Below, piece by piece: positions 20,133-47,792 of a stretch of DNA of 64,000 bases. Both the position numbers and the translations under genes were made by a program. Origin of the DNA: Halofilum ochraceum. GTDB lineage: Bacteria > Pseudomonadota > Gammaproteobacteria > XJ16 > Halofilaceae. Within the stretch, counting starts at the first letter, position 1, and every line of letters begins with the position of its first letter. The notes below the pieces were generated by a model. It worked only from the letters and a program-made list of their open reading frames with translations, did no database searches and was not told where the DNA came from. The DNA lies in the NCBI RefSeq assembly GCF_001614315.2, contig NZ_LVEG02000005.1, forward strand, positions 124,001-188,000. The letters are read 5' to 3'.

Positions 20133-20271
20133 TGGTCGGAGACAGAAAACGCTAAACCTCAATCCCGTAATTTCAATGAGTTGCGTGATTGTTTTACACA
20201 AAGTACTTGAAAACAGGCAATTGCCGCGAAGCGTCGCCACGGCCTTGGGGCTTTGACAGAAAACGCTTTAC
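20133..20271. repeat. Transposon left end: terminal repeat and three spaced TnsB-like sites
   Basis: Reading inward on the plus strand, sites L1 (20139-20158, GAGACAGAAAACGCTAAACC), L2 (20193-20212, TTTACACAAAGTACTTGAAA) and L3 (20252-20271, TTTGACAGAAAACGCTTTAC) share an ACAxxAAxxxCTT/A core. They are spaced 34 and 39 bp apart. Spaced sites at one end and tandem sites at the other is the Tn7 plan. Confidence 0.85.
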
Positions 20272-20324
20272 CTCTGGACCACTACACTTAACGCCGACCC
20301 GGGGGCGTTGGTTTTACCGTCTTG

Positions 20325-22577
20325 TTACTGTCCAGACCGAGTAAGCCGGCCGGCGACTCGGATCGCAGCCTGCGTGTCCAGTCTCCGGGATGACCAGTCG
20401 ACGTTAAGCAGATCCTCACCGAGGTATTCGTCGTACTTCTCCGTCTGTTTGTTCTGAACGCCGGATGCCAAATCCTCGGGGGAGGGCGCGGGGGCATCGC
20501 ATATATCCCTCAGCTTCGCACGAACCTCAGATGGCTGGGCGTCCTTCACCCTCACGCAGATACCTTCCCGTTCGGAGTGCGTAGCCTTGCTCGTCAGAAT
20601 CGCCGCCAACGTGTCCATAGCGATATCACCCGCCCATGGAAAGACGAGCGTGTTCTTCCCGTCTTCCACGAGGCACTCATCACGCAACCCAAGGCGCTGG
20701 AAGTGCTCTCGCCCCTCCGTGAAGAGTTCTTTCGCCTGAGTGTCGAGATAGACGGGGTCGGCCGCCCCACGATAGAGCTCGAACATCTTGTCCCGCACCT
20801 TGTCGTGTACCGTTCCGGGTGTACCGCCGAAACTGGGGGCGCGACCACCGGTAGCCCGGGCCAAGTCGATGCGTTTGTGGTCCGTATCGACATGCAATAC
20901 CCGCCACCGACGACCGGAAAAGATGAGATATGACTCCTCCATGACCGGTCGGTCGATCGGCAACGTCCCGATGATCTTCCCGTCGACGGCCAGGGAGAAC
21001 TCTTCCGGGGCGTTGAACGCGGAGTAGAAGCTGTAGTGGTTGACTATGCGTTCGCCGTGCTCGCCGTGAAGAAGCGTCCCGTCGCGGCTTTGCATCAGCA
21101 GCCGAGCCGCGCCCATCTGTCGAAGCAACGCCAGGAAGTGATCCTGGCTGACGGCGCTGAATGGGGCACTTTCGCACAGCACGTTCCACAGTCCCTGGGC
21201 GGTGGCTCCGCCGTACTGGGCCACCACTGACAGGATCTGCTGGATGAGCGTGGACAGGTGCAGTGCGGAGACCCGCGGCGGCTCGGTCCAGCGTTCGAGC
21301 AGCAACTCCGTCATCGCAGCGGCCTGAAAGAGGGCGGGGCGCAGTCGGTCGGGCGGCGGCGTCTGATCGTCGATTCGGTCTTCCCGGATGTAGAGACGCA
21401 GGACCGCCGCATCGCCACGCCGACCGGACCGGCCCAGGCGCTGTCGCAGGCTGGCCACCTGATGCGGCGGACCGATCTGCGCAATGCTGGCGACCGCCCC
21501 GATATCGATCCCCATCTCCAGGGTCGATGTACATACCGCGGTGACCGGCTGGGTGCCCGTTTTCAGGGAGGTCTCGACGTGTTCACGCAGGTCCTTCGAG
21601 AGACTCCCGTGGTGGGGAAAGAACTCCACGGGCACGCCGAGGGAATCACACTCGCGGCGAAGCAGGTCGCCATAAACCTCCACATCCCGCCGCGAATTCG
21701 CGAAGATCAGATTGTTCGTGCCACGCAAGGTCCGGAACAGGTGTCGGGCGATATCGACGACGTCGCCGTTCAGCGTATCGGCTTGGTCAACCTGTTCACC
21801 CCGTTCGTCACGCTCTTCCGCCTCGTTCGTCGACAGGGCGGGTGGCTTGTGCTCGTAGCCACGGACCTGCAGCTTCAATGCGGCTCCGGAATCCTCCGTG
21901 GAGACGATCGTGTCGACCTGCTCGCCGCCGCCTGGGCGAAGGAACTCGGCGGCGAGGCCCATGTCGCCGAGGGTGGCGGAAAGTCCCACCCGCGGCACGC
22001 GCCGCCGCAGGGTCAGCTCGAGTCGATGCATCAGGGATTGCAGCTGCATCCCGCGTTCGACGCCGATGAACGCGTGCAGCTCGTCCACAATGAGGTAGCG
22101 GAGGCGCTCGAAAAGTTGGGGAACGCGATGGCCGTGCGTGACGAACAGTGCCTCGAGCGACTCCGGGGTGATCAGGAGCACACCCTGCCGCTTACGGAAG
22201 AAGCGGTCCTTCTGTTTTCGGCCGACGTCGCCATGCCACGGCACCACCGGGATGTCCGTGCCCTCGACCATCAGTTCCAGGCGCTGGAACTGGTCATTGA
22301 TCAGGGCCTTTAGCGGGGAGATGTATAGCGCAAGGCCTTCGCATTCGTAATGTCCCGGTTCGTCGCCGAGGAGACGGGAGAGGACCGGGAGGAACGCGGC
22401 CTCGGTCTTGCCGCCGGCGGTCGCCGCTGCAACGATGACATCCTGATCGCCCGCGACGAGAGTCGGAATCGCACGTTCCTGGGTCGGTGTGAGTGCACCC
22501 CACCCCTGGCGCCAGATCCACCGCTGGACGTGCGGATGCAGGGCCTCGAAGGCACGGGAAGACTCCGCGCTGGTCAT
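20325..22577 (-). CDS. sngC: Shango defence helicase SngC (Lhr-like DEAD/DEAH-box)
   Basis: Superfamily 2 helicase of 750 residues. Motifs in order: Q-like WGALTPTQERAIPTL, Walker A AAATAGGKTEAAFLP, Ib LLITPESLEALF, Walker B YLIVDELHAF (DELH), motif III GLSATLGD, then the second RecA domain with NNLIFANSRRDVEVY and motif VI LRQRLGRSGRRGDAAVLRL. The C-terminal ~300 residues lack the accessory modules of full-length Lhr. It resembles the BrxHI/Lhr-type helicases of defence islands. It is the last gene of a TerB-ATPase-helicase operon, which is the composition of Shango. It starts 12 bp after the ATPase stop. Confidence 0.82.
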   Translation of the reverse strand: MTSAESSRAFEALHPHVQRWIWRQGWGALTPTQERAIPTLVAGDQDVIVAAATAGGKTEAAFLPVLSRLLGDEPGHYECEGLALYISPLKALINDQFQRLELMVEGTDIPVVPWHGDVGRKQKDRFFRKRQGVLLITPESLEALFVTHGHRVPQLFERLRYLIVDELHAFIGVERGMQLQSLMHRLELTLRRRVPRVGLSATLGDMGLAAEFLRPGGGEQVDTIVSTEDSGAALKLQVRGYEHKPPALSTNEAEERDERGEQVDQADTLNGDVVDIARHLFRTLRGTNNLIFANSRRDVEVYGDLLRRECDSLGVPVEFFPHHGSLSKDLREHVETSLKTGTQPVTAVCTSTLEMGIDIGAVASIAQIGPPHQVASLRQRLGRSGRRGDAAVLRLYIREDRIDDQTPPPDRLRPALFQAAAMTELLLERWTEPPRVSALHLSTLIQQILSVVAQYGGATAQGLWNVLCESAPFSAVSQDHFLALLRQMGAARLLMQSRDGTLLHGEHGERIVNHYSFYSAFNAPEEFSLAVDGKIIGTLPIDRPVMEESYLIFSGRRWRVLHVDTDHKRIDLARATGGRAPSFGGTPGTVHDKVRDKMFELYRGAADPVYLDTQAKELFTEGREHFQRLGLRDECLVEDGKNTLVFPWAGDIAMDTLAAILTSKATHSEREGICVRVKDAQPSEVRAKLRDICDAPAPSPEDLASGVQNKQTEKYDEYLGEDLLNVDWSSRRLDTQAAIRVAGRLTRSGQ

Positions 22578-22589
22578 CGACTTGGCAGC

Positions 22590-23933
22590 CTAAAGGCGGA
22601 AGGTCTGGAGTTCGTCGTCCGAACCGTCCTCCTGGCGCGGCTCAGTGGTCGCTTCGTCCTCGGCGTCACCAGCCGGCATCGCCTCGATCTCCTCCGCTTC
22701 GTCCGGCTGCACCTCGACTGTCCCGATGAGCTCGCGCCAGTCCTGATCGGGATTCTGCTCAAGCACGGACAACAGGTTCACGAACTCCTTGATGGAGTTT
22801 CGCGGTGTCGTGAAATACGCGGCCCCGATCCGCTGGTGGCAGTGGTCCATGAAGGCATGCAGGGCGTCATCCGGCACGAGATATTGGGATTCATCGCCGC
22901 CGGCCATGACATGGCGGATTTTGGTCAGGAGGATATAGAGGTCTTCCTGCGTGAGATTGCCGAGGCGGATGACCGGACCGCTGTAGTCCACAAGGCCGTC
23001 CCGGGCGAAACGGTTTTCGGCCAGTCGGGTCTGCAGGGCCTCGTAGCTGTAAAGTCCGCGTCGCGGATCCATCAGGAACTCCGGCGTGCCTCCCATGAGG
23101 AAGCCGAGGCCCTCGGCGTGCCCCTGCAGCGTGTCGTTGAGTATGCGCAGGATCTGCTCGTAGTTGCTCTTTCGGGCTTGGCTGCTGGACAGCTTGAACA
23201 GATTGACCATTTCGTCCATGCCGACGAGCAGGCCCTGATAGCCCGCCAGACGAACGAACCGGGCCATCAGCTTGAGATGGTCGTAGCAGTTGGCGTCGTC
23301 GATGATCGTGCGGACGCCGAGGGCCTTGCGGGCATCGGTCTTGGTCGAGAACTCCCCGCGCAGCCACCGGACCGCGTCCATCTTGAGCTGCTCGTTGCCG
23401 CTGTCGTGCCCTCGCCAGTAGGCCTCGATCACCAGGGCGAAGTCGTAACCGCCGGTCATTTCGGTCAGGTGACCGAGGCGGTCGTGTATGGCCGATACGG
23501 GCGACTCTCCACTCGAACGCGCCTGTTTCAGGCTCTCCGAGACGAAGCGCTCCGCGATACTGGCCAGCGCACCTCCCTCGGGCTTGGAGCGCGTGGAGAT
23601 GTTCCGCATCAATTCGGCATAGAGGGCTCGGGCCTGGCCTCCGGTCGCATGCAGGCGGCGGTCCGGCGTCAGGTCGGCGGAGGTCGCAACCAGCTTCTTC
23701 TCGAGCGCGATCGAATGGATCAGATTCAGGAAGAACGTCTTGCCGGACCCGTACTCGCCGATGATGAAGCGGATGCTCGACCCGCCATCGGCGATATTGT
23801 GGATGTCGCGAAGGAGCGCCTCGACCTCGTCGGCCCGGCCGACCTGGATGTGCTGCTGGCCGACCCTCGGTACGACACCGGCACGCAGGGAATCAAGAAT
23901 GGCTCGACGTTCCTTCTCGCGTATACGGCTCAT
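22590..23933 (-). CDS. sngB: Shango defence ATPase SngB (DUF2791/BrxD-like P-loop)
   Basis: AAA-like P-loop ATPase of 447 residues. Walker A is FIIGEYGSGKTFFLNLI at about residue 58, and Walker B is QGLLVGMDEMVNLF at about residue 235. LGFLMGGTPEFLMDPRRGLYSYEALQTRL and RLGNLTQEDLYILLTKI match the DUF2791 family, which also includes BrxD of BREX. The C-terminus is acidic and low-complexity. Its ATG overlaps the stop of the TerB-protein gene by 4 bp (ATGA). It probably works with the helicase on DNA of infecting phage. The mechanism of Shango is not settled, and BREX can be excluded by the missing pglX, pglZ and brxC. Confidence 0.82.
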   Translation of the reverse strand: MSRIREKERRAILDSLRAGVVPRVGQQHIQVGRADEVEALLRDIHNIADGGSSIRFIIGEYGSGKTFFLNLIHSIALEKKLVATSADLTPDRRLHATGGQARALYAELMRNISTRSKPEGGALASIAERFVSESLKQARSSGESPVSAIHDRLGHLTEMTGGYDFALVIEAYWRGHDSGNEQLKMDAVRWLRGEFSTKTDARKALGVRTIIDDANCYDHLKLMARFVRLAGYQGLLVGMDEMVNLFKLSSSQARKSNYEQILRILNDTLQGHAEGLGFLMGGTPEFLMDPRRGLYSYEALQTRLAENRFARDGLVDYSGPVIRLGNLTQEDLYILLTKIRHVMAGGDESQYLVPDDALHAFMDHCHQRIGAAYFTTPRNSIKEFVNLLSVLEQNPDQDWRELIGTVEVQPDEAEEIEAMPAGDAEDEATTEPRQEDGSDDELQTFRL

Positions 23934-26221
23934 TGGACCATCTCCTGGTAGATTTCACGATCGAGTGCGTAGAGGTCGCCGTCCTCCTCGATGCAGGGCG
24001 CATCGCAATGGTCGAATGCCGCCTCGTTGATGGTGTCCAGCGCCCCGTCCAGCATCAACCCATGGTGATGGGCGAGCTTCTCCAGCGCATCGCGTTCCCA
24101 ACTGTCGTGTTCGCCCAGTCGCCGCAGCAGCGCCGAGTGTTCCGTATCGAGGCCGTCGATGGTTGGCACCGAAGCGTCGTCTGCCTCCGCGGGTTCCCCG
24201 GATTCGTCCGAACCGTCTTCCTCTCCGAAAACCCCGTGGAGGAGGGTGGACACCTGCGTTGTCTCGGCCAGCTTGCGCTGGAGTGCATCCGGATCCAGAG
24301 CGGATCGTCCACCCTCCGGTGTCGGCTCCGCTGCGGCGGCGCGCCGCCCGGGCTGCTCGGGGATGCTGTAGCCCTGTTGTGGGGTGGCGGGTTTCACGGT
24401 CACTGGGCCCGCGCTCACGCCGTGCAGATCAGATACCACCCGCTCCGGATCGAGGCCCAACTGCTTGTAGAGCTTCTGCAGGATTTTGACCTCACCGGGA
24501 TCGACGTGTCCGTCCGCCGCGGCGATCGCGACAAGATACTCGCCGACGGTTCCGCGCTGCGACTCCGACAATTCCCCGATCTGCGCCTTGAGCCCGGCCA
24601 TGCCGCGATCGTGCCGGAGTTGCCACTCCTTGTGTGCGTGCAGGCGGCTCCGTTCGCCCGCCTCCAGCGACAGGCTCGTCTCGATATGATGCTCCAGGTG
24701 CTGTTCCTCGGCCGAAGAGACCTCTCCGTCAGCGACGGACACCATCGCCGCCAGTCGCATGACCAGTGCAGCGGCCTCGAAGGCCGGTGAGGGGGCGCTC
24801 GGTGCGTCGTGGTCCTGTCGAAACACTACCAACTGCTCGTCGGGGTCTGGCTTTAGGCCGCTGAACCGGACATCCGGTTCCATACCGTAGCCAGTCTTCT
24901 CGAGGAGCTGCGCGAGTAACACCGATTCCTTCTTGGAGAACCTGTCCGGCTTATCGACCGGGAAGTCCTCGATCAGCTCACCAACCGGAACGAAAGTCCA
25001 TTCGCGACCTTCTGCGTGGCGGTCGAGCGTCGCCCGAAGCGCTTTGAGGCCGGGATGATCCACCGACCCGGCAAGTTCCGTGGGCAGGAGCGCGACTGCG
25101 TGCAGGCTCTCGCGGCCGTTGCCGTCTTTACCCAGGAAGCGGCTGTAGGAATCGAGCTTGTCGGTGGCCTGCTCCGCGATATCGGTGAGCAGCGTGCGCG
25201 GACGCTTGAGAATCGTGATGTCGGGTAGGGCAGGCCCCTTGTAAAGATCCACTGCCCCGCGCATGCCTCCGGATGCCGGATGATATTGCGCCCGCACGGG
25301 TGTCTTGTTTGGTTTGACGACAATTCCCTCGCCGTGGCGCTCCCGGTAAAGGGACTCGAACAGCGCCCGGAATTCGGATGGACAGCGCCTCGCCGGCGTG
25401 CGCAGACGGATCTCCGGGTGATGAATTACCCACGCCAACGCCCATTCTGCCGGGATCGGCTTGCCCGCCTTGCTGAATTGTCCCAGTCCGACTTTCAGCG
25501 ATGCCGGGATCTCATGTCCCGAAGTTGCGGAAACGGGCGGGGCGTTGGTGAGGTCGCGGTCGCCCCCGCCCAATTCGATCGCAGCCAGGAACTCCTCGGC
25601 GTAACGGGCAAAGGACCGATTGTCGCCATAAAGCTGCAACAGGCGCTCGACTTCAGCACGGATCGCGAGACGTTCTTCGGGATCATCGGCCCCGCTTCGG
25701 TGATCGTGCAGCAGCCGCCTTTCCAACCCGTAGAAGTACAGAAAGACGTAGCCAATGTACGCCCGCGGGTCCTTGCGGCCCTTAGCCAGCCATTCCAGAT
25801 AGGCGGCGCGGCAGCGCGGTCCGATGTCCGCGTAGGCGGGCCAGTAGTCCATGCCGGCTCCGTCCCGAGCGGGGCGGGCGCGATCCACCTTCAGATTGGG
25901 GTCGATCAGGGCGGGCTCGGTTCGGTAGCCATCGACGGAGGCCAGATCACGACCGACGTACAACAGGCCACCGTCGAGCGAATAGTCTTGCACGGTCGTC
26001 GCGCGGCCAGCGGGAAGCCAGAACTGGCGGAAGTTTCGGCTGAGCTTCCTTCTCGTATTCCTGCGCCCAATGCTGTCGCCGCTCGAGGAAACCTGAACAC
26101 GAACGCCGTTGTCGCGCGTCGGCCGTCGCGACTCGCGCGGCGAGTTGATGGATTTCTTGTCCGAACCGCTCAACCAGATCAGACCTCCGGCGACCAGGGC
26201 GATGATGACCAGGTATTCCAA
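23930..26221 (-). CDS. sngA: Shango defence TerB-domain protein SngA, TTG start
   Basis: Protein of about 763 residues. It starts with a single transmembrane segment (LEYLVIIALVAGGLIWLSG) and a basic linker. A TerB-N region follows (DYWPAYADIGPRCRAAYLEWLAKGRKDPRAYIGYVFLYFYGLERRLL), then a TerB-like helical domain with acidic metal-binding character (AAMVSVADGEVSSAEEQHLEHHI, later AAADGHVDPGEVKILQKLY). The C-terminus is TerB-C-like (LDREIYQEMVQ). TerB modules sit at the membrane in stress and phage-defence complexes. The frame is open to ATG 26374, but those residues look non-coding. TTG 26221 has AGGA 7 bp upstream and places the membrane segment at the N-terminus. It is the first gene of the operon. 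Confidence 0.82.
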   Translation of the reverse strand: MEYLVIIALVAGGLIWLSGSDKKSINSPRESRRPTRDNGVRVQVSSSGDSIGRRNTRRKLSRNFRQFWLPAGRATTVQDYSLDGGLLYVGRDLASVDGYRTEPALIDPNLKVDRARPARDGAGMDYWPAYADIGPRCRAAYLEWLAKGRKDPRAYIGYVFLYFYGLERRLLHDHRSGADDPEERLAIRAEVERLLQLYGDNRSFARYAEEFLAAIELGGGDRDLTNAPPVSATSGHEIPASLKVGLGQFSKAGKPIPAEWALAWVIHHPEIRLRTPARRCPSEFRALFESLYRERHGEGIVVKPNKTPVRAQYHPASGGMRGAVDLYKGPALPDITILKRPRTLLTDIAEQATDKLDSYSRFLGKDGNGRESLHAVALLPTELAGSVDHPGLKALRATLDRHAEGREWTFVPVGELIEDFPVDKPDRFSKKESVLLAQLLEKTGYGMEPDVRFSGLKPDPDEQLVVFRQDHDAPSAPSPAFEAAALVMRLAAMVSVADGEVSSAEEQHLEHHIETSLSLEAGERSRLHAHKEWQLRHDRGMAGLKAQIGELSESQRGTVGEYLVAIAAADGHVDPGEVKILQKLYKQLGLDPERVVSDLHGVSAGPVTVKPATPQQGYSIPEQPGRRAAAAEPTPEGGRSALDPDALQRKLAETTQVSTLLHGVFGEEDGSDESGEPAEADDASVPTIDGLDTEHSALLRRLGEHDSWERDALEKLAHHHGLMLDGALDTINEAAFDHCDAPCIEEDGDLYALDREIYQEMVQ

Positions 26222-26530
26222 TAAAGCGTCCTCGCGGTTTTCGTTATTTACATGCCCTGAGGCGGGTCCGGATGCGTCGGCGTGCCGTGGCCGGGAGGCG
26301 CCCACCTTGCCGGATCGACTGCGCGCTAAGCCTAGCATCACCGGGTCGACCGCTGACACGGGTCCCGGAGCCACCGGTGGTTTCTTTGCAGCGGCGGGCC
26401 GGTTGTCCTACGTTCGATTCGGCGGGGGACTTCTGGGCGCTGGCGACACGGCTGCCCCGCCGGCCGATCGGCGCCGAAGAGCAGTGAACTTGCCAGTGGA
26501 GGGAACAGCTGGCGGCTCCGGGAGTGACGC

Positions 26531-27161: not shown

Positions 27162-28673
27162 CTAGGCCGGGCGCCCGATCCCCGGGAAGGGGACGGTCGT
27201 CGTCAGAAATTGCCGGAATCGCTTGTGCAGTTCGAGGAACGCCTCGTACGGGAGGCCGTCGCGCTCGATCTCGAAATCGAAGGCCGTGATCACGCCCGCA
27301 TTCGGCCCGCAATGGTGCCGGTGGAAGGTGCGACACCGGGAGCCGGTGCGTGGTCCCGTGGGCACCGTACACATGTCGAGCGGGTGCTCACCCTCGTAGT
27401 AGAACGTGAGGCGCTCTCCCGAAACGGCGCTCGCGTACCAGTGGTCGGGCGGAACCGCCTGCGCCCGCGCGCGACGAAATGCGCCGGCGTCATGGTTCTC
27501 CCGGTAGTGCCGCAGCTGTTCACACCACTCGTTCAGGAACCGGTAGAGCACGACGAACTGGCTCTCGAGCTGTCTGCGGATCAGCCACGCGCGGAAACCA
27601 CTGCCCGGATAGCTCACGCGACCGTCTTCGTGGCGGACTGCGGGCCACCAGATCGGTGCGGGCTCCGGTCCCTGTGCCTGTTCGTAGAAGGGGTAGGCCT
27701 CGAGCTGGCGCGCGAAAAAAGGAGCGTAATGCCGCGCCGCGGCACGGAAAAACCACAGACTCAGCGCCATGCATTGGGGGCAGGGATCCGGTCCGTCGAG
27801 CAAGTGCTCCGGGCGCAGGTGGCGGTAGCTGGTGACGTGCGGACGGTGGCGGGGCGCGCGCCGCGAGAGCCAGGCGACGATCGCCCGCGTCACGGCATAG
27901 TCGGCCGTGAGCACCGAACGCGGTGGGGCGGAGGGGCCGGCGTTGCGGCTGGCCCTCGGCATCACCGAGGCCAACGTCGGATCCGTTTCCGAGAGTCGGG
28001 TGGTGCGGTGGGCAAGGGGCAGGCGGCGGATATGCAGGGCATCGAGCTCGTCTGCGCGGAACGCCCGGCAACGATGCGCCTGAAAGGCCCCATAGAGCGG
28101 TGAGTCGAGGCTGATCTCCCGCCAGGCGGGATCGATCAGCGGTGGTGGGAGACGCCCTGGCAGGCCGAGCAGATCGTGCGTCTCGCCGGTCTCGCGCATG
28201 AACCGGTGGATCTCACCAATGGGACTGCAGTCCAGGTCCGCGATCACATCTGGAAGGCGCTCGAACGGTACGCACCCGCAATGGGGGCAGTCGCGTGCTG
28301 CGAGCTTTTCCCAGGGCGGCCACGGTCGGGCACAGACCGGACAGCATTCGGTGAACGCGCAGTGATGGATCGGGCAACGCTCGAGCCAGGGCAGGGCATA
28401 GACATCCGAGTGGTAGAGCGCGGCGGCGCATGCGGGACACTGCCGCGGGCTGCGCCCGCGCGCCGGCGATGCGCCGTCGCCGTCATTCGCCGCCTGCAGT
28501 GCCGCGACCCGCTCGAACAGCGAGCCGCGGTCGGGCACAACGCGGCGCAACGTCACTTCGATGGCTGATAGCGGGATACCCGGGTTGGCACTGAGGCAGC
28601 GGCGCAGCATCGAATAGCGGCTCTCGTAGGGGCGCTCAAAGAGCCGGCCGAGATTGACGAGGAAGGGCTCCAT
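27162..28673 (-). CDS. tniQ: TniQ/TnsD-family target-selection protein
   Basis: TniQ-family protein of 503 residues. The start PFLVNLGRLFERPYESRYSMLRRCLSANP resembles TniQ N-termini. It is followed by a double zinc-ribbon region: CPACAAALYHSDVYALPWLERCPIHH, then CPVCARPWPPWE and DCPHCG. The Cys/His set and the ALPWLERCPIHH phrase (usually W...CPxHxxxL) are diagnostic. The ~300-residue C-terminal half is unlike Tn5053 TniQ in length and probably reads the target DNA, as in TnsD. ATG 28673 shares one base with the stop of tniB (TGATG). There is only one TniQ-family gene, so this should be the sole target selector. Confidence 0.82.
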   Translation of the reverse strand: MEPFLVNLGRLFERPYESRYSMLRRCLSANPGIPLSAIEVTLRRVVPDRGSLFERVAALQAANDGDGASPARGRSPRQCPACAAALYHSDVYALPWLERCPIHHCAFTECCPVCARPWPPWEKLAARDCPHCGCVPFERLPDVIADLDCSPIGEIHRFMRETGETHDLLGLPGRLPPPLIDPAWREISLDSPLYGAFQAHRCRAFRADELDALHIRRLPLAHRTTRLSETDPTLASVMPRASRNAGPSAPPRSVLTADYAVTRAIVAWLSRRAPRHRPHVTSYRHLRPEHLLDGPDPCPQCMALSLWFFRAAARHYAPFFARQLEAYPFYEQAQGPEPAPIWWPAVRHEDGRVSYPGSGFRAWLIRRQLESQFVVLYRFLNEWCEQLRHYRENHDAGAFRRARAQAVPPDHWYASAVSGERLTFYYEGEHPLDMCTVPTGPRTGSRCRTFHRHHCGPNAGVITAFDFEIERDGLPYEAFLELHKRFRQFLTTTVPFPGIGRPA

Positions 28674-29617
28674 CAGGCGGGGCGAACCAGTGCGGGCACG
28701 AGCCCCGAGATGCGCACGCACTCGTGCACCATCTCGTCGTCGAAGGCCTCCACGCCGAGATCGGCGAGGAAGTCGGTCAGCAGGGTGTTCACCGTCGCGA
28801 CGAAGTACTGCATCCCCCAGGAGTCGATCGCGTAGGCGGTCTGGTACTCGCGAAAAACCCGCCACAGATCGCCGGCGAGCGAAGCCAGGCGCCATCCCTG
28901 CTGTTCGGCCTCGGGCAGGAAATAGCCGGTGTAGGTGGGACCGTCGGCGGGGTAGCGCAGGCGATCGTACTGAGAGAGACAGAAGTGCACCTGCTCCCGG
29001 GAAGTCAGGCCGGGGAAGGTCGTGCGCTGGGCGAAGAAGCGCCCATGGATATGCGCGTAGCGCGGTTGCTCACACGCCTCGAGCAACTCGCTCGACTCCT
29101 GATCGTTACCGACAAAAAAGTGGGTCAGTGCCATGTCGAGCAGCCGCAGCCGGTCGTGGAGCTCGGCGAACGGGCCGAACTGCAGGGGCGTCAGGCGCTG
29201 CATCTCGTCGACGATCAGCACCGCATAGCGGCTGTCGCTCTCCACGGCCCGGTCGGCGATGTAGTGCAGGAACCGGTCGGCGAGGTGGTCTGCCCGGTCG
29301 TGGTTGGCCGAGCGCAGCCCGACGCTCCAGCACAGCTGGCGAAAGACCGTCATGACCGTGTGCTGGTCGCGAAGGGGCATCGAGACGTAGTAGACCGGGA
29401 TCGGCGTGTTATCCCGCGCGCGCAGTTGCGAGGCGAGGGTGCGCACCGCGGTCGTCTTGCCCACGCGCGCGGCGCCCAGGATCAGCCCGCCGGTGGCCCC
29501 GGTCCACAGCCAGCGATGCAGCTCGTCGCGCAGGCCCTGGATGGCCGGCGTCTCCAGGTGCAGGCGGTCGTGCTGGAAGACCGGATGGTCGTAGAAATCG
29601 CGGGCGCTGCGGTCCAT
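28673..29617 (-). CDS. tniB: TniB/TnsC-type AAA+ transposition regulator
   Basis: AAA+ ATPase of 314 residues. Walker A is LILGAARVGKTTAVRTLASQL (about residue 47) and Walker B is YAVLIVDEMQRLTP (about residue 145), followed by the sensor-1 segment THFFVGNDQESSELLEA. The N-terminus (DFYDHPVFQHDRLHLETPAIQGLRDELHRWL) is of TnsC/TniB type. Such proteins form filaments on target DNA and connect the target selector with the transposase. ATG 29617 lies 2 bp after the tnsB stop codon. The frame stays open far upstream (to 30619), but that part is antisense-like shadow of tnsB. Confidence 0.87.
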   Translation of the reverse strand: MDRSARDFYDHPVFQHDRLHLETPAIQGLRDELHRWLWTGATGGLILGAARVGKTTAVRTLASQLRARDNTPIPVYYVSMPLRDQHTVMTVFRQLCWSVGLRSANHDRADHLADRFLHYIADRAVESDSRYAVLIVDEMQRLTPLQFGPFAELHDRLRLLDMALTHFFVGNDQESSELLEACEQPRYAHIHGRFFAQRTTFPGLTSREQVHFCLSQYDRLRYPADGPTYTGYFLPEAEQQGWRLASLAGDLWRVFREYQTAYAIDSWGMQYFVATVNTLLTDFLADLGVEAFDDEMVHECVRISGLVPALVRPA

Positions 29618-29619
29618 GG

Positions 29620-40084: not shown

Positions 40085-40092
40085 TGGTGCGC

Positions 40093-41193
40093 TCAATCTT
40101 CCCAAGGCTCGACGGTTTCGAAGAATTCGTACGGTATCGCCTGACTGAAGTCGGCGCGCAGGGGCATATTTCGATGATGCCACTTCGTGTTTCCCCGGGT
40201 GGCGTAGACCGTGGCCCCACGCCGGATAAACCCGTTGACGACCATGCGTCGAGGGTGGGTCTCGGTCTTGCTAGCGACCGAGGCAAAGGCCGTTACCGAC
40301 TCAGTCCCGCCGCGCTCAGTATCGGTTTCACCGAGTAGTCGATCTAGGATCGACGGCGCAACGTTGTGTCGCCCACCGTGATGGGGGACCTGCACGAAAC
40401 GCGGCGGCAGCGGATACAACGATGGGTTGTCCTCGATGTACGAGAGCGCCTCATCCAACGTTTCGATGCCTGCGTCTGCGGTAAGTAGCGCGATACGGTC
40501 GGTGAAAACAGCAGCCTGTACGAGACTGCTCTCGTTTGAGGCGGTCGTCTTGACGTGCTCCCGCAGCGATTCCACGCCGAAAGTCTCCAGGATCCAGTCG
40601 CGCACGCTGCCCGCGGCGTGGGCTAAGTCGCGTAGGGTAAAGCGGTCGGCATGGTCCTCGGATTCTTCCGGCGTGCGGGCGAAACCGGGCACAAGGTGCA
40701 TATAGCGGGCGCGGCTGGGCGCGAGCACCGTGAAGGCGCCGATCTGGTCACCTTGGAAGACGGTGCGTATCGGGATTCCGCGCCGCTCGGCGGTCTCCTC
40801 AATCTCGACGACCATTGGATACGCATCACGCAGATGGCGGGCGAGACTGGCAGCCGTAAGTCGGTCATCCTCAAAATGGTCGACTAGCTCCTCGGCGAAG
40901 AGCCATGGCCGATTCAACCAAACAGTACCTATGGTATTGCGCTCGAGGACAGTGCGTAGCCCCGACACGTGATCGTCGTCGAGATGGCTGCATACCAAGT
41001 GGTCTACGTGGGTAGTACCGTAGTAGTGAGACAGGTGCCAGCATAGCGCTTCACCGGAGTCCCGGTTGCCGCCATCGATCACGTGCACCCACTGCCGTCC
41101 CGCCTGATAATAGCGAACAGCGATTGCGTCACCACTGCGCTCTCCATCACCTACGGGAAGAAAATCGATTTCGTAAGGGAGGTCGGACATCAC
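40093..41193 (-). CDS. ComEC/Rec2-like metallo-beta-lactamase-fold protein
   Basis: Soluble MBL-fold protein of 366 residues. The metal motif HLVCSHLDDDHVSGL (HxDxDH), the first strand pair (VHVIDGGNRDSGEAL) and the late QVPHHGGRHNV segment match the ComEC/Rec2-like branch, whose known members act on nucleic acid or phosphodiesters. The ending TKWHHRNMPL contains a further His pair. It is the first gene of a two-gene operon with a four-helix membrane protein. Two ATGs (41193 and 41190) are possible. It is cargo of the Tn7-like element, with long gene-poor stretches upstream and downstream of the pair. Confidence 0.8.
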   Translation of the reverse strand: MMSDLPYEIDFLPVGDGERSGDAIAVRYYQAGRQWVHVIDGGNRDSGEALCWHLSHYYGTTHVDHLVCSHLDDDHVSGLRTVLERNTIGTVWLNRPWLFAEELVDHFEDDRLTAASLARHLRDAYPMVVEIEETAERRGIPIRTVFQGDQIGAFTVLAPSRARYMHLVPGFARTPEESEDHADRFTLRDLAHAAGSVRDWILETFGVESLREHVKTTASNESSLVQAAVFTDRIALLTADAGIETLDEALSYIEDNPSLYPLPPRFVQVPHHGGRHNVAPSILDRLLGETDTERGGTESVTAFASVASKTETHPRRMVVNGFIRRGATVYATRGNTKWHHRNMPLRADFSQAIPYEFFETVEPWED

Positions 41194-41938: not shown

Positions 41939-42817
41939 TCAGCCGAAGAACGAGAGCATCGCCTCGGCGGAAGCGGTTGGTTGTTCCTCTACCACGAAGT
42001 GCCCGCAGTCAAGCGGAACATCCCGGACGTCATCGGCCCATTGTTCCCAGGAAGCTCGGGGCGAGACCGCGTTCTCGCCGAGGTATCCCCGTCCCCAGAG
42101 CAGGAGTACAGGTGCGGTCAGCTTTCGCCCGGCCGTGCGATCATGGCGGTCCAGTGCGCAGTCGCATGTGGCGCCCGCCCGGTAGTCCTCGCACTGCGCA
42201 TGGATGCGACCAGGGCGGCCGTATTGCGCGAGGTACATTTCCATCGCGCCCGCGTCGAGACCGCGCCAATCGCCGGCCCAGCGTTCGAAGAGATGACCGA
42301 AGTAGAATCGGGGATCGTGACCAATGAGTGTCTCGGGGACGGGTGAAGGCAAGGCGAGGAATGACCAGTGGTAGTGTGCCAGCGCTGTGGCCGCATCCAT
42401 CTGTTCCCAGACATCCAGCGTCGGGATCACGTCAACTGAGCAGAAACGCGTGACCCGTCCCGGGTGATCGAGAACCAGTCGATAACCGACTCGAGCCCCT
42501 CGATCGTGGCCGGCGAGCGCGAACCGGGCGTGTCCCAGGTGATCGGCCAGTTCGACGATGTCCTGCGCCATCGCCCGTTTGGAATAGGGGAAGTGCTGGT
42601 CGTCGGTCTCAGGTGCCGACGTCTTCCCATAGCCGCGAAGGTCGGGAATGACGACCGTATGCTTTTCGGAAAGGGCGGGTGCCACCCGGTGCCACGCGAC
42701 ATGCGTCTGCGGGAAACCGTGGAGGAGATACAGCGGCGGCCCACTGCCTCCGATCTGGTAGAACATCTCGACATCGCTCAGTTCGGCCGAGCGTGCCTTG
42801 AAACCGACGGGGAACAT
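41939..42817 (-). CDS. Fluoroacetate/haloacetate dehalogenase-like alpha/beta hydrolase
   Basis: Alpha/beta hydrolase of 292 residues with oxyanion motif YLLHGFPQTHVAWHRVAP and an Asp nucleophile in ALAGHDRGARVGYRLVLDHPGRV. The cap has ALAHYHWSFLALPSPVPETLIG, and later CEDYRAGA and CGHFVVEEQP carry the catalytic His. HDRGARV together with HYHWSFLA is the pattern of fluoroacetate/haloacetate dehalogenases, where His and Trp of the cap bind the halide. It should hydrolyse haloacetates to glycolate. It is the farthest of three same-strand hydrolases. The acid residue expected near LLWGRGYLG is replaced (Arg where Ser/Asp is common), so activity needs testing. Confidence 0.75.
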   Translation of the reverse strand: MFPVGFKARSAELSDVEMFYQIGGSGPPLYLLHGFPQTHVAWHRVAPALSEKHTVVIPDLRGYGKTSAPETDDQHFPYSKRAMAQDIVELADHLGHARFALAGHDRGARVGYRLVLDHPGRVTRFCSVDVIPTLDVWEQMDAATALAHYHWSFLALPSPVPETLIGHDPRFYFGHLFERWAGDWRGLDAGAMEMYLAQYGRPGRIHAQCEDYRAGATCDCALDRHDRTAGRKLTAPVLLLWGRGYLGENAVSPRASWEQWADDVRDVPLDCGHFVVEEQPTASAEAMLSFFG

Positions 42818-43046
42818 GGCTCAGTTGGCTCCCGCGAACTTCGCACCGAATCAATGCGGTTGCACTTCATGCAAACGGCGCGGTTGTCGCGTTGTCTCGA
42901 ATATCGATTGTCCCGTTGCGGCAGGCCTCGTGCTGCGCGCAGTGGCACGGTCGGTAAGGGCGGCTTGAGTCGGGTGCGGACCTCGCCGAACAGTGACCAC
43001 GTCCACCAGGCTGACTGTTCTCCCGCGCCGAGCCGTGATCTCTCTC

Positions 43047-43877
43047 TCATGCTCGCCCGTCACGTGCACCCAGCAATGCAGCCACGACCGCTTCTGGCGC
43101 ATCTTCCATGACAATATGCGCGGCATCGGGAACCACGGTGAATGAATCGGCGTTCAGGGCGTCGGCCAGCTCACGTCCCTGCGAGACCGGAATGTTGTCG
43201 TCGTGCTCGCCCCACACGAGGTGAACCGGGAACGCCACGGGCGCATAGCAGTCCTGTACCTCTTGGATATAGCCGGACCCCGAATGAAGGATCTGTCGAT
43301 AGAATGCGGGCTGACCGACGTCACCGCGCCAGGGGGCTGCGTACATGTCGATGGTTTCGGCCAAGAGGCCGTGGAGCGAGCCGAAGTTCACGAATGCCCT
43401 GAACAGCGCGTCATGGGTGAACCCCGGGGTTTCAGCGAACGCTTCGAAGTGCTCCTTCGCGTGGGCGAAGAACGGCGAGCCGGACGGAAGCACCGAGACC
43501 GCATCGATGAGGTAGAGCGCACTGTACTCGATGCCGCTGAGGAAGTGGCCCCGCAGCGCAGCCAGCCCGCCGAAGTCGTGGGCAACGACGAGCGGCTTCG
43601 AGAGGCCCCAATGATCGATCAGGTTCGCCAGCAGCTCATTCTGCACGGCCGGCGACACATCCTGCTCCGCATGCTTGGCGGACTGACCGCACCCGAGCAT
43701 GTCAAAGTAGTACACGGAACGCTCGCGCGCAAGCCAGGGCGCAATCCGGCGCCATGCCTGGGCCGACCAGGGGAATCCGTGGATCAGCACGGCGGGTGGT
43801 GCCGTATCCGGGCCCTTGATCCAGCCCCAGGCCACGGCGTCACCGTGGAAATCGAACGTGCGGTCAAGTGTCAGCAT
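43047..43877 (-). CDS. Alpha/beta hydrolase, haloalkane dehalogenase/epoxide hydrolase type
   Basis: A 276-residue hydrolase with oxyanion loop AVLIHGFPWSAQAWRRIAPWLA, Asp nucleophile in LVVAHDFGGLAALRG, catalytic acid in HLVWGEHDDNIPVSQ and catalytic His in VVPDAAHIVMEDAP. An Asp (not Ser) nucleophile restricts it to dehalogenase or epoxide-hydrolase chemistry. GGAGGA sits 8 bp before ATG 43877; the ATG at 43895 has none. It is the middle member of the three-hydrolase group, separated from its neighbours by 229 and 283 bp, so the group may be several transcripts. Substrate unknown. Confidence 0.78.
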   Translation of the reverse strand: MLTLDRTFDFHGDAVAWGWIKGPDTAPPAVLIHGFPWSAQAWRRIAPWLARERSVYYFDMLGCGQSAKHAEQDVSPAVQNELLANLIDHWGLSKPLVVAHDFGGLAALRGHFLSGIEYSALYLIDAVSVLPSGSPFFAHAKEHFEAFAETPGFTHDALFRAFVNFGSLHGLLAETIDMYAAPWRGDVGQPAFYRQILHSGSGYIQEVQDCYAPVAFPVHLVWGEHDDNIPVSQGRELADALNADSFTVVPDAAHIVMEDAPEAVVAALLGARDGRA

Positions 43878-44160
43878 GGCAATCCTCCGTGGCAACCGCC
43901 GAAAAATTCTTTCGGGCTAGCGCTTTGGGAACGAGCATCGTCCAGAATCGGGGCGGCGTATGCCCCTGTCTCGGTTACGGGGCCATCGCCTGCATGGTCA
44001 TGGTCTTTCGTCGGGCGCTCCGTGACCCGCGCCCGAGAGCATTGCTCGCGGAAGCGGCCGTGAGCAATCCCTGAATACCGGAGCGACTGGGCCGCAGATG
44101 CGGCCACCTGAAATCTCGCGTAACCGAAACGCCCGCCGCCCGGTGAGCTGCTCGCATCGT

Positions 44161-45039
44161 TCATGCAGATTGGCTCGCCCCGCTGGTTGCTCCGGATTCT
44201 CCCCGCGCGGCGCGTGATTCGTGATCCCTGAGGAGCATGTCCAGTTCGCGAGCGAACAGTCCGGGGCAATCGACCATGGAAAAGTGCCCGGCATCGGGCA
44301 GAATTCGCAGGGATGAGCCGGGCGCGAGATCGCATAGACGGTCGCCGACGGACGGTGCAACCCACTGGTCGTGTTCGCCCCAGAGGATCCCGACCGGGAT
44401 ATCCAACTGCGGATAACGCGACTCGAGCCAGTCCGTGTACTCATAGTCAAATTGCGCTACCTGACGGTAGTACGCGGGCTGACCGATCGAACCCGTCCAG
44501 GGCTCAATCAGTGCCGATTGCAGTGTCGGTGGCATCGGGCGATGGACGGCCGTCGCAAGGTGCGCCGCGAGCGAGGCCCGGTGGATATAGTCCGGGACCG
44601 CCGCGAAGACGGCTTCGTGATTGCGGACGTGGCGCGAGTAGGGTGTGCCCCATGGTCCGAGCAGGACGCCGTCCGCGACGGTGATGGATGCCGCGGCTCG
44701 GCCCTCGATCAGATGAGCCCCCATCACCGCCGCGGCCCCAAAATCGTGCCCGACCAGGTGCGGGTGATTGAGCCCCCGGTCGACCAGGAACTCGGCAAGG
44801 ATCCGGGCAAACGACCGCAGGCGGACTTCCTGGCCCTCGTACTGCGCGGATTGTCCGTAGCCCGGCAGATCGAGGACATGGATGCGGTAGCGCCCCTGCA
44901 GGCGCTCGATCACTTCGTTCCAGATGATCGAACTGGTTGGCGTACCATGCACCAGCACCACGTCGGGCCCGTCGCCTACCGCGCCCCATGCGATCCTCCC
45001 CGCGGACGAGGGCGATCGTTCGGTCAAATGACAATGCAT
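44161..45039 (-). CDS. Alpha/beta hydrolase, haloalkane dehalogenase-like, divergent from lysR
   Basis: About 292 residues. Oxyanion loop VVLVHGTPTSSIIWNEVIERL, Asp nucleophile in HLVGHDFGAAAVMGAHLI, acid in GILWGEHDQWVAPSVG and His in RILPDAGHFSMVDCPG are all present. The cap segment IEPWTGSIGQPAYYRQVAQFDYEY is close to that of the neighbouring hydrolase (GDVGQPAFYRQI), so the two are paralogues. I chose ATG 45039; a longer frame reaches 45144 but would run through the divergent promoter. Control by the adjacent LysR regulator is likely. Confidence 0.78.
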   Translation of the reverse strand: MHCHLTERSPSSAGRIAWGAVGDGPDVVLVHGTPTSSIIWNEVIERLQGRYRIHVLDLPGYGQSAQYEGQEVRLRSFARILAEFLVDRGLNHPHLVGHDFGAAAVMGAHLIEGRAAASITVADGVLLGPWGTPYSRHVRNHEAVFAAVPDYIHRASLAAHLATAVHRPMPPTLQSALIEPWTGSIGQPAYYRQVAQFDYEYTDWLESRYPQLDIPVGILWGEHDQWVAPSVGDRLCDLAPGSSLRILPDAGHFSMVDCPGLFARELDMLLRDHESRAARGESGATSGASQSA

Positions 45040-45135
45040 CCTTTGGACTCCCGCGCCAGAACTGCTGAACCGAATTATCCGCACCGTTTCCGGACTCTGC
45101 AGCGAAGAATCGCCAACTGGACTTGACGCAACGTC
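45040..45135. promoter_or_regulatory. Divergent lysR/hydrolase promoter, duplicated at 46260-46325
   Basis: The 96-bp gap must hold both promoters. Positions 45074-45135 recur in inverted orientation at about 46260-46323, with shared blocks such as ACCGTTTCCGG, GCAGCGAAGAA and CAACTGGAC. Conservation of this block in a decayed copy marks it as the likely LysR-binding region. Confidence 0.6.
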
Positions 45136-46041
45136 ATGCATCACAGTAGCGGCATGGGCGCCATTCCCCCCATTTCGCAGATCCGCTCATTCGTCGCGGT
45201 CGTGGCTCACGGGCGATTGAATCGAGCTGCCGCGGCGCTCGGGCTGAGCGAGTCCGCCGTCAGCCATCACCTGCGCAAGCTGGAGCATGCCCTCGGAGCG
45301 AAACTGCTCGAGCGGGGCGGGATCAGTGTCGTCCTCACGGCGGCCGGAGAGCGCTTCGCCCCGCTGGCTCGCGATGCTGTCGCGCGGCTCGAGGAAGCCG
45401 TGGGAGCGGTCGCTGGTGCGGAGAGCGGCCGGGTCCTGCTGACCTTGCCGCGCTCACTGGCGACCCACTGGGTCGTGCCGCGTTTCCCGCGCCTGTACGC
45501 GCAGACCGGCGAACCGGAATTGCAACTGCTGCCGACCACCCGGCGCTGTGATCTGGAGCGAGAACAGATCGACCTGGCAATCCGGCTCGGCGAGGGCAAA
45601 TGGCCCGGGCTGGATGGCGTTTTTATGATGCCTGAGCGGATCTGCCCCGTGACGACGCCGGGCATCGCCGAGGATCTGCGTGGACATGGCTGGGGGGCGC
45701 TGGCACCGAATCAACGAGTCATCGTGAACGAAGCCCACCCGGGTGAGTGGGCGGCGTGGTGCGAGGCCACCGGTCGGGCCCCGCCGAACAAGACGCGATC
45801 GCTCGAATCCTTCGACTTCGTGCTCCAGGCCGGACTCGCCGGCTCGGGCCTGATCATGGGCCGCACACCGATGGTCCACGACGCGCTCACGCGCGGCGAT
45901 CTGGTCGCCCCGTTCCCAGACTGGGTCGATACCGGCCCTTGCTGGTATGTGGTCTGGTCGGAGCAGCGCCCGCCAAATCGCCATGCCGCCCGTGTGCTGG
46001 AGTGGCTCAAGACCTGTGCAGGCGAAGGCATCGCCGAGTAA
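45136..46041 (+). CDS. LysR family regulator (GcvA-like)
   Basis: LysR-type regulator of 301 residues. The N-terminal HTH reads PISQIRSFVAVVAHGRLNRAAAALGLSESAVSHHLRKLEHALGAKLLERG, with the linker helix after it. The effector domain starts at GRVLLTLPRSLATHWVVPRFPRLYAQTGEPELQL, and LERGG...LTAAGERFAPLARDAVARL is the GcvA-group pattern. It faces the hydrolase gene at 44161 across a 96-bp promoter region, the usual position for a regulator of the divergent gene. A partial inverted copy of its start lies just beyond its 3' end. It is transposon cargo. Confidence 0.9.
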   Translation: MHHSSGMGAIPPISQIRSFVAVVAHGRLNRAAAALGLSESAVSHHLRKLEHALGAKLLERGGISVVLTAAGERFAPLARDAVARLEEAVGAVAGAESGRVLLTLPRSLATHWVVPRFPRLYAQTGEPELQLLPTTRRCDLEREQIDLAIRLGEGKWPGLDGVFMMPERICPVTTPGIAEDLRGHGWGALAPNQRVIVNEAHPGEWAAWCEATGRAPPNKTRSLESFDFVLQAGLAGSGLIMGRTPMVHDALTRGDLVAPFPDWVDTGPCWYVVWSEQRPPNRHAARVLEWLKTCAGEGIAE

Positions 46042-46179
46042 ACAATATTGTGACTTGAGACCCTTGCGGGCTGGCACAGGGAGCCGGGATTCGATATTGG
46101 CTCAATCGCTGACCGGGGCATACAGGGGCGATATCCATCACGGCTCCGGTCGCTCGGCGCGATCCCGAGGCGGCGCCGG

Positions 46180-46325
46180 GCCCGGTCGGACTCGGTCAGC
46201 CCGCGTGCCCCCGACGCTCGCTGCAACCGCCCATGAGCCATGATCGCACCGCAACGCATGACATTCTGTAAGGTCCAGTTGACAGTTCTTCGCTGCGGAC
46301 GCCGGAAACGGTATGGATAATACGG
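46180..46325 (-). pseudogene. Inverted fragment of a lysR gene with its promoter
   Basis: On the minus strand 46325-46260 repeats the promoter of the neighbouring lysR gene. From ATG 46259 it reads MRCGAIMAHGRLQRASGARGLTESDRARRRL, against VVAHGRLNRAAAALGLSESAVSHHLRKL in the intact gene. About 16 codons are missing at the start and similarity stops after about 30 codons. It is a decayed paralogue, not a mere promoter repeat, because coding similarity continues past the ATG with third-base changes. The rest of 46042-46584 shows no gene. Confidence 0.7.
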
Positions 46326-46584
46326 CTCTATGCCTTCTGCGTGGGAATCCGCATCCCTTGGAGAGCTCGTACCGTAATGTTCTACACGGGTGACAGTCGT
46401 CTTTCTTCGATCGAGAAGCACAACACGGCCGCACGGTCCGCCGCATTCGCTGCGGCCGGGAAGATACTCGTCAGCGCGGTGTCCCGGCTTGCGGCCACAT
46501 TCCGAGGGCCTCGTGTGCGTCCACTGAGGAGGCGGAGGTGAGCCCTTGGGGGCGGAAGCAGGGGCAGGGCACAGGAGCGATGCG

Positions 46585-47328
46585 ATGCACTGGCTGATTG
46601 TTCATTCCCACCCGGAGCCCGATTCCTTCAACGGGGCGCTTACGGCTACGGCCCGCCGGGCACTGGAGGGCCGCGGCGACAGCATCGAGGTGTCCGACCT
46701 CTACGGTGAGGGCTTCGACCCGGTGGAGGGGCCCGCGCACTACGCAGAGCGCGCCGATTCCGACTACTTCGCTGCGCTCGGCGAGCAGCGCCATGCCTGG
46801 AAGGCGGGCGCATTGGCCCCGGAAGTCACCCGCGAGATCGCGCGCCTCCAGCGCGCCGAGGGGCTGATCCTGCAGTTCCCGCTCTGGTGGCATGGTCCGC
46901 CGGCGATACTCAAGGGCTGGATGGATCGAGTGTTCATCAGCGGTGGGCTGTATACGAGCCGGATGCGCTATGACAACGGCTACTTCCGCGGACGTACCGC
47001 CTTGTGTGCCGTCACCACCGGGGCTCCGGCCGAGACGCTCGGCCCCGGCAGCCGGGGCGGCGATCCGGACACGATGCTCTGGCCGGTCGAGTACTCGCTG
47101 CATTACATGGGGTTTCGCGTACTCACGCCGTTTATCGCGCCCGGTGTTCAGGGACACGGTTACAGCTACCAGGATGCTGAGTCGGCCGATGGACTGCTCC
47201 AGCGACATCTGGCGCGCTGGCACGAGCGCCTCGTCAATCTCCACACGGACGCTCCCAGAGCTTTCCCCGGATGGGAAGACTGGGACGAGAGCGGTCGGGC
47301 GCGGCGTCCGCAGGTTTCTGGCCCGTAG
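46585..47328 (+). CDS. NAD(P)H:quinone oxidoreductase, flavodoxin-fold (NQO/KefF type)
   Basis: FMN/FAD flavodoxin-like protein of 247 residues. It starts MHWLIVHSHPEPDSFNGAL, the phosphate-binding loop of the NQO family, followed by LILQFPLWWHGPPAILKGWMDRVFISG, which carries the FPLWW and KGWxDRV signatures. It should catalyse two-electron reduction of quinones or related electrophiles in the cytosol. ATG 46585 with GGAG upstream is chosen over 46546. It is the last cargo gene before the right end of the transposon. The tail beyond residue ~225 is divergent. Confidence 0.85.
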   Translation: MHWLIVHSHPEPDSFNGALTATARRALEGRGDSIEVSDLYGEGFDPVEGPAHYAERADSDYFAALGEQRHAWKAGALAPEVTREIARLQRAEGLILQFPLWWHGPPAILKGWMDRVFISGGLYTSRMRYDNGYFRGRTALCAVTTGAPAETLGPGSRGGDPDTMLWPVEYSLHYMGFRVLTPFIAPGVQGHGYSYQDAESADGLLQRHLARWHERLVNLHTDAPRAFPGWEDWDESGRARRPQVSGP

Positions 47329-47724
47329 GCCATCAGTATTCCGCCGGCGGTACAGTTTCTCGAGACCATGGGCACGGGCGCCTGCATGGCCCAGGTAGAC
47401 CGCGACCCCGGCGCTCCTCGCTCGGTGGACGCGGAGATCGGGCGATGGAACTCCAGACCCGGCCGGACAAGCGCAAGGTGGAAATTCTCGGGGATTCACT
47501 CGTTACCTTATACGAGCAGACGGCGAAGCGGCATGTACCTCGCATTCACTGCGGCGCAACGAGCCGAGCGGCTGGCAATCGTCGTCCAGGCAATCGCTCG
47601 TCGTCGCGCTAGAGCAGAGCTCCGCGTAGCCGGTACGCCTTTCCGCGCAAGAAACCGACGGTTTCTGCTCAGCCGATTCATGCCGCATTTCCCGGATACG
47701 ACCAAGACCCGGTTCTGGTCAACG

Positions 47725-47792
47725 ACACAAGCACTTTGTGTAAAGATTTAGCACTTGTTGTCAAAAACTTAAGTGCTTTCTGTTCTCGACCA
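47725..47792. repeat. Transposon right end: three tandem TnsB-like sites and terminal repeat
   Basis: Read inward on the minus strand, R1 (47767-47786, AGAACAGAAAGCACTTAAGT), R2 (47745-47764, TTGACAACAAGTGCTAAATC) and R3 (47725-47744, TTTACACAAAGTGCTTGTGT) share the ACAxxAAxxxCTT/A core with the left-end sites. R2 and R3 abut, and R1 lies 2 bp from R2. The outer 6 bases TGGTCG match the left end. 47329-47724 inside the end holds no supportable gene. Confidence 0.85.

Follow-up and report, generated by a model that had tools for sequence, protein, structure and literature searches.

A Tn7-like transposon next to chromosomal dif in Halofilum ochraceum, with dif as its probable attachment site

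The window, a 64,000-nucleotide stretch of Halofilum ochraceum contig NZ_LVEG02000005.1 (positions 124,001–188,000), contained at 20133–47792 what appears to be a complete Tn7-like cut-and-paste transposon, the right end of which was located 37 nucleotides from the chromosomal dif site. The sequence comparisons point to dif as the attachment site of this transposon, a reading to which a probability of about 0.83 was assigned. The element, its ends and dif were located as follows.

20133–47792: Tn7-like element, 27,660 bp, flanked on both sides by CTCAT
20128–20132: left copy of the target-site duplication CTCAT, read from the sequence
47793–47797: right copy of the target-site duplication CTCAT, read from the sequence
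20133–20270: left end, TnsB-like sites from 20142, 20196 and 20256 (motif only)
47727–47792: right end, tandem TnsB-like sites at 47727, 47747 and 47769 (motif only)
47830–47857, plus strand: chromosomal dif, 28-mer ACTGCGCATAATGTATATTATGTTAAAT, 37 nucleotides beyond the right end

The left end of the element was TGGTCGGAGACAGAAAACGC and the right end, reverse-complemented, was TGGTCGAGAACAGAAAGCAC; both began with TGGTCG, and the termini had the form TGGTCG...ACAGAAA. Each end contained three inward-pointing TnsB-like sites, spaced on the plus strand at the left and tandem on the minus strand at the right. The motif derived from the ends had 13 matches in the 64 kb with up to three mismatches, six of which were the end sites. 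When each TG...CA pair that brackets the tns genes and has the same 5-bp sequence on both flanks was scored on the similarity of its ends, the CTCAT-flanked pair ranked first of 3575, with a score of 20 against 17 for the runner-up. Chance pairs at other loci scored 19–20 in the same scan, so this score is supportive and not decisive; as it lies near the noise, weight is added by the site layout and the target. The borders, the CTCAT duplications and the arrangement of sites proposed in the original prediction, which had been made from the letters of the window, were all recovered by these searches.

The transposition genes were clustered on the minus strand, with a tyrosine recombinase gene divergent from tnsA, and the starts of the tns genes were inferred from alignment with relatives.

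27162–28673, minus strand: tniQ/tnsD-like gene, about 503 residues, Cys/His zinc ligands conserved, start inferred
28673–29617, minus strand: tnsC (tniB), AAA ATPase (Pfam AAA_22, alignment, PDB TnsC at 0.0024), start inferred
29620–31488, minus strand: tnsB, DDE transposase (alignment and profile), start inferred
31479–32162, minus strand: tnsA, PD-(D/E)xK-like endonuclease (motif by eye), start inferred
32359–33096, plus strand: tyrosine recombinase, 245 residues (Pfam PF00589, 1.4e-19)

The reading frames of TnsA, TnsB, TnsC (TniB) and TniQ were open, and residues D226, D328 and E365 of TnsB were invariant in an alignment of eight sequences including that of the window, in agreement with the original description of these genes as apparently intact. 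The lone protein sequences were scarcely recognised, whereas profiles built with relatives gave matches to solved TnsB (5.5e-13), to ShTniQ (5.1e-7) and TnsD (2.1e-4) for TniQ, and weakly to solved TnsC (0.0024). TnsA matched NCBIfam NF033179 at 1.5e-8, below the cut-off, and its alignment with relatives backed the assignment. The library matches of TnsA and TnsC were weak when taken alone and were supported by gene order and alignments. The AlphaFold model of TniQ was unusable, with a predicted local distance difference test (pLDDT) value of 33. The single TniQ, listed in the original prediction as unusual, is not odd in itself. The tnsA, tnsB, tnsC and tniQ cluster, the 5-bp duplication around inverted ends starting with TG, the asymmetric ends with multiple sites, the profile matches and the empty site described below supported the proposed placement of the element in the Tn7-like class.

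The order to which the window's genome belongs was represented in the collection by three genomes of one genus. In one of these (G002), window positions 2728–15613 and 47820–56879 matched in syntenic pieces when fetched stretches were compared by blastn, and no part of 20133–47792 matched. Syntenic core genes within the borders had been named beforehand as evidence against the transposon; the comparison gave syntenic flanks and an interior without a match. The joined flanks of the window aligned to G002 across the duplication without interruption, reading GACGGC(C/G)GCGCTCAT and then the right flank. This alignment included 14 of 15 left-flank letters, the duplication among them; its score was 75, compared with 61 when the right flank was aligned alone, and the left-flank score was reached by 3 of 2000 shuffled left flanks. 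The empty site that the original prediction had proposed to look for was therefore present as an uninterrupted target through one copy of the duplication, over 15 comparable left-flank letters. Only these 15 letters were comparable because G002 has an end-like sequence of its own further left. This lone sequence (L015:7600–7800, contig C2 of G002) consisted of two tandem TnsB-like sites (...ACTGGCCA) about 66 nucleotides from dif by eye. No tns gene was found among ten open reading frames scanned nearby, so the sequence may be a remnant of another, perhaps dif-directed, insertion.

The 28-mer at 47830–47857 resembles the E. coli dif site. Its core had one match in the whole genome with up to three mismatches, was likewise single in G002 and in two further genomes described below (G145 and G475), and was kept in place in G002 with one change. 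The polarity of the FtsK orienting polar sequences (KOPS; GGGNAGGG) reversed at this site, with 10 on the plus and 2 on the minus strand in the 40 kb left of the element, and 0 and 4, respectively, in the 34 kb right of dif. GC skew was a weaker witness (+0.024 over the 40 kb at the left and −0.035 over the 34 kb at the right). According to PMC5357621, dif is a 28-bp site of the terminus found across bacteria and archaea, and the B. subtilis site consists of two half-sites of 11 bp on either side of a 6-bp centre. The original prediction was right about the element and missed its probable target, the dif core 37 nucleotides away, as well as the recombinase beside tnsA.

TnsB of the window was divergent within the Tn7-like elements. 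At E 1e-10 or better, 364 of the 369 genomes in the class gave no match, and the relatives were in four other genomes (G145, G182, G274 and G366). A TnsB profile found three of 210 genomes in the order of G475 (G475, G477 and G646) and G145 alone among 109 in its own order. Single-protein pattern scans gave no TnsB relatives in genome contigs or viral contigs, and a two-row TnsB profile gave two in genome contigs. In G475, a Sedimenticola metagenome-assembled genome (JALWRH010000027.1), TnsA, TnsB, TnsC and TniQ were 50, 46.5, 45 and 35.5% identical to those of the window, and the element (5788–36419, target-site duplication CAAAT) ended 36 nucleotides from the sole dif. In G145, an uncultured Arenicella contig (CANMNN010000002.1) with a TnsB 28% identical to that of the window, a 41.4-kb element with the duplication AAAAA also ended 36 nucleotides from dif, on the side of the other arm. 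The gaps between element end and 28-mer were therefore 37, 36 and 36 nucleotides in the window, G475 and G145. The borders in G475 and G145 were first found by looking near dif; a later scan that was blind to dif ranked the dif-side pair first in the window (of 3575), G475 (of 4410) and G145 (of 3669). Candidate pairs with an end 30–45 nucleotides from dif numbered 3, 1 and 1, respectively. By eye, the three target flanks had dif alone in common. Altogether, eight TnsB-bearing genomes were searched for dif with up to three mismatches; it was found in six, and an end adjoined it in four of the six, three of these elements being delimited at both ends. This spacing would reflect active targeting. 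Inside the three delimited elements, KOPS pointed toward and away from dif in ratios of 7:1, 3:0 and 4:0 (14 against 1 in total), a small post hoc count in which gene direction was uncontrolled. Such polarity would be expected of an element that has long resided next to dif.

Several observations weigh against dif as the target. In G274, dif was located on the contig of TnsB about 89 kb away, and in G477 it was on a separate contig with no transposon end visible beside it. G366 and G646 had no dif at up to three mismatches and count neither way; clear ends were not found in G274, G366 or G646 (best scores 16–18, within noise). In G182, tnsA-tnsB-tnsC was followed by an array of end-like repeats and, beyond it, by dif. 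Its contig broke in tnsA, however, leaving a single visible end and no duplication, and the gap of about 39 or 64 nucleotides, taken by eye, was uncertain. The geometry also varied, as the end facing dif was the tnsA-side end in the window, G475 and G145 and the opposite end in G182 and in the Klebsiella plasmid pNY3A, and the element lay on the side of the XerC arm in the window and G475 and on that of the XerD arm in G145 and G182. Among plasmids, clear ends were found at one (pNY3A) of the ten loci fetched. At the window itself, GC skew did not switch sharply at dif, with 47858–64000 still at +0.004, and the right-side value of −0.035 was reached only when the next 18 kb were included. No KOPS were found in the scanned flanks of G145. 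Finally, an inverted-repeat measure did not single out dif, the window site having 7 of 11 pairs.

A TnsB relative was present in 59 of 72,556 plasmid records. At nine of the ten loci fetched the ends could not be found (best scores 16–18, within noise), and in four plasmid relatives no dif-like motif with up to seven mismatches was located 20 kb or less from TnsB. The element of pNY3A spanned 8942–24664 of L034, with the target-site duplication AGATA, and its tniQ-side end lay 35 nucleotides from TGTTCGTTAAATTCCTATTTAACGAACT (L034:24700–24727), an 11-6-11 inverted repeat in which 10 of the 11 positions pair. By this measure none of the seven other flanks examined, among them the dif flanks, had more than 8 of 11 pairs. 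This repeat is built like a Xer-type core, its spacing from the element is almost that seen for dif, and it is a candidate core site. The pNY3A element also carried ThiF, Mov34 and SAVED genes of defence type.

The recombinase beside tnsA had PF00589 as its single Pfam domain, with little before the catalytic domain. In a comparison limited to element recombinases, the R, HxxR, H and Y positions were kept by eye. It scored 83 bits against NCBIfam XerD (cut-off 330), and the genome has two far stronger PF00589 proteins elsewhere; it is therefore unlikely to be the host XerC or XerD. Among the best 25 of at least 5000 plasmid records, recombinases were 36–42% identical to it and are presumably of the ResD type, and phage records gave 53 weak matches, none at 60% identity or more. 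The recombinase was 76% identical between the window and G475, and four-fold sites were 45% identical, which argues for conservation by selection and not for a very recent transfer between the two. A 1155-bp block that includes the gene and some 400 bp of upstream DNA was 92% identical between G475 (C27:29661–30812) and G646 (C302:15756–16906), and these elements had no blastn match outside it. An isolated block of this kind in divergent elements looks like a swapped recombinase cassette. In each of the three elements having it (window, G475 and G646), the gene stood next to tnsA in divergent orientation. It was absent from the 13.5-kb contig of G477 (TnsB 46% identical), and G145 had instead a different recombinase of 337 residues, roughly 1 kb away from the end facing dif; G475 had a second one, of 276 residues, near its dif-side end. 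No dif-like or shared motif between recombinase and tnsA was common to the window, G475 and G646. The AlphaFold model of the recombinase was unusable (pLDDT 41).

In the proposed mechanism, TnsB would occupy the three sites at either end, TnsA would act with TnsB to excise the element, and TnsC would connect them to a target selector located on dif. Insertion would then occur 36–37 nucleotides outside the 28-bp core, on the side of either arm, and since dif is left whole the cost to the host should be small. Candidates for the selector are TniQ on dif, TniQ on XerCD-bound dif and the tyrosine-recombinase cassette beside tnsA; the first two are favoured, possibly with help from the recombinase.

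The chances are about even that TniQ selects the site by itself in the manner of TnsD, or together with XerC/XerD at dif as in the Tn5053-type res-site hunters, with the recombinase as cargo or resolvase. At about 503 residues, TniQ belongs to the length class of TnsD (a 462-residue chain) and not of the 167-residue ShTniQ, and its profile matched both. The pNY3A element lies beside another inverted repeat of comparable geometry, which would fit the sensing of a bound complex and not of one sequence, and the res-site hunters choose sites occupied by resolvase, where their insertion produces 5-bp repeats (PMC7765201); against this, G182 showed no tniQ in the interval from tnsC to the end. A selector role for the recombinase itself, which would bind dif or the Xer complex and recruit TniQ-TnsC as TnsF does in Tn6022, is rather unlikely. 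Its divergent place beside tnsA in three elements, its 76% identity to the G475 protein where TnsA, TnsB and TnsC are 45–50% and TniQ 35.5% identical, and its exchange as a 92% identical cassette would suit such a role, for which TnsF is a precedent of a recombinase-derived selector (PMC10293859). Furthermore, elements without TnsA usually have a cointegrate resolvase according to PMC11406308, and with TnsA present one should not be needed. However, G145 was dif-bound without the cassette, the G477 contig had no such gene, and G646, a carrier of the cassette, could not be placed relative to dif. The recombinase also keeps its catalytic positions by eye, unlike TnsF, and may thus be an active recombinase.

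Two further explanations dispense with transposition directed to dif. The surroundings of dif could be a permissive, hypervariable terminus in which elements gather by chance and selection, as the variable DNA at 15.6–20.1 kb of the window, the distance of about 89 kb in G274 and a partial repeat of dif in that genome, some 7.2 kb from the site itself, might suggest. Scattered positions would then be expected, whereas the gaps were 37, 36 and 36 nucleotides with TnsB proteins 28–47% identical to that of the window; the near-constant spacing disfavours a chance collection and makes this explanation improbable. The element adjoins dif and codes for a tyrosine recombinase, as might an island integrated by Xer recombination, one of the integrative mobile elements exploiting Xer (IMEX). 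Its borders, however, were a 5-bp duplication and TnsB-type ends, not two flanking dif copies, and dif was single with up to three mismatches, so that an Xer-integrated island is extremely improbable.

When the element was compared with described systems, it shared with Tn7 and Tn7-like elements (TnsA-TnsB-TnsC-TniQ/TnsD) the gene set and order, the 5-bp duplication, the spaced-left and tandem-right sites and the defence-rich cargo. Attachment sites described elsewhere are glmS, comM, parE and tRNA genes, whereas here it is probably dif. In Tn6022, a tyrosine-recombinase-like protein, TnsF, is likewise coded with tnsABC-tniQ; according to PMC10293859 TnsF has zinc fingers, lacks a catalytic chamber and targets comM, whereas the protein of the window has 245 residues with catalytic positions kept by eye. 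The zinc-finger N-terminus and inactivated catalytic domain typical of TnsF were not found in it. The Tn5053/Tn402 elements resemble the window element in their 5-bp repeats and insertion near a dimer-resolution type of site; according to PMC7765201 they have TniABQ, carry res-TniR and hunt res sites. Tn5053 is also named in PMC11406308 among elements without TnsA. The window element has tnsA, which separates it from the res-site hunters. TniR is a serine recombinase, and no serine recombinase family was found by Pfam at E 0.001 among 20 open reading frames of the element. IMEX such as the gonococcal genetic island also exploit dif, but by XerCD recombination into dif itself (PMC5357621), whereas the window element transposes next to it. 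TnsF and the res-site hunters are thus two precedents, neither of which fits by its defining features.

The new part is dif as the probable attachment site. No Tn7-like transposon at dif was described in the full-text literature searched, supplementary files and most subscription papers lying outside its scope. The whole word dif was absent from the main texts of PMC10293859, PMC8649781, PMC7765201 and PMC11406308; in PMC12893667 the terms 'transposon insertion', 'dif site' and 'TniQ' each occur once. Targeting of dif would tie Tn7 targeting to chromosome-dimer resolution and FtsK translocation, would widen the res-site-hunter idea to tyrosine recombination sites, and raises the question of whether DNA or the bound XerCD complex is read by the machinery. 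A transposase landing at a fixed distance from the short, widely conserved dif and leaving it unbroken could be a broad safe-site inserter. A wider and more tentative possibility, held at somewhat less than even odds, is that a branch of the Tn7 family lands on the Xer dimer-resolution complex, at dif in chromosomes and at Xer-like cores in plasmids, with the swappable recombinase cassette as selector and with the KOPS inside the element polarised in keeping with its place next to dif. If so, one selector would serve both vertical inheritance through chromosomal dif and horizontal inheritance through plasmids.

The cargo was found on both sides of the transposition genes, the Shango genes to the left and the other genes to the right.

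20325–22577, minus strand: sngC, Shango DEAD/DEAH helicase (PADLOC SngC, 6.9e-271)
22590–23933, minus strand: sngB, Shango BrxC/BrxD-like ATPase (PADLOC SngB, 1.9e-183)
23930–26374, minus strand: sngA, Shango protein with TerB domains (PADLOC SngA, 6.1e-96; Pfam)
33164–39322, plus strand: 2052-residue protein with an HTH_upst_double_PIN domain (Pfam, 1.3e-6)
40093–41193, minus strand: metallo-beta-lactamase-fold candidate defence protein PDC-M48B (PADLOC, 1.1e-108)
41939–42817, minus strand: fluoroacetate dehalogenase homologue (5k3d, 7.7e-97)
43047–43895, minus strand: alpha/beta hydrolase (5w15, 3.2e-76)
44161–45144, minus strand: alpha/beta hydrolase (Pfam)
45136–46041, plus strand: LysR-type regulator (Pfam)
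46546–47328, plus strand: flavodoxin-like NAD(P)H oxidoreductase (Pfam, NCBIfam)

The Shango set was complete by PADLOC, with SngA, SngB and SngC together, as judged from the genes alone. Shango and PDC-M48B should confer phage defence on the host, and the cargo would also supply a dehalogenase; the combination of phage defence with halo-organic catabolism had been read correctly in the original prediction. The 2052-residue protein had no PADLOC match, showed a restriction-endonuclease-like N-terminus by eye and was convergent with the PDC-M48B gene. It is possibly an undescribed defence gene.

Minor observations were made in the relatives. In G274, tandem repeats CCACCAAAGATGCCCG, 30 bp apart and downstream of tniQ (L028:4683–4758), are probably the TnsB sites of that element's end. 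The partial direct repeat of dif and its flank in the same genome (C86:90327–97541) might be a leftover of an Xer-integrated element. At a contig end in G001 (C193; L017:90–115), beside a short tandem repeat, a dif variant had an intact XerD arm and an altered XerC arm and centre, and may be a hybrid left by an Xer-integrated element. In the window, 15.6–20.1 kb was likewise absent from the corresponding place in G002, so that the element forms the margin of a longer variable region. Positions 15613–20132 contained a TetR gene and a small open reading frame that ended at the insertion site and looked frameshifted, and the segment at 18.8–19.65 kb was repeated elsewhere in the window's genome (G000:C1:112226–113093) and on contigs of G002 and G001.

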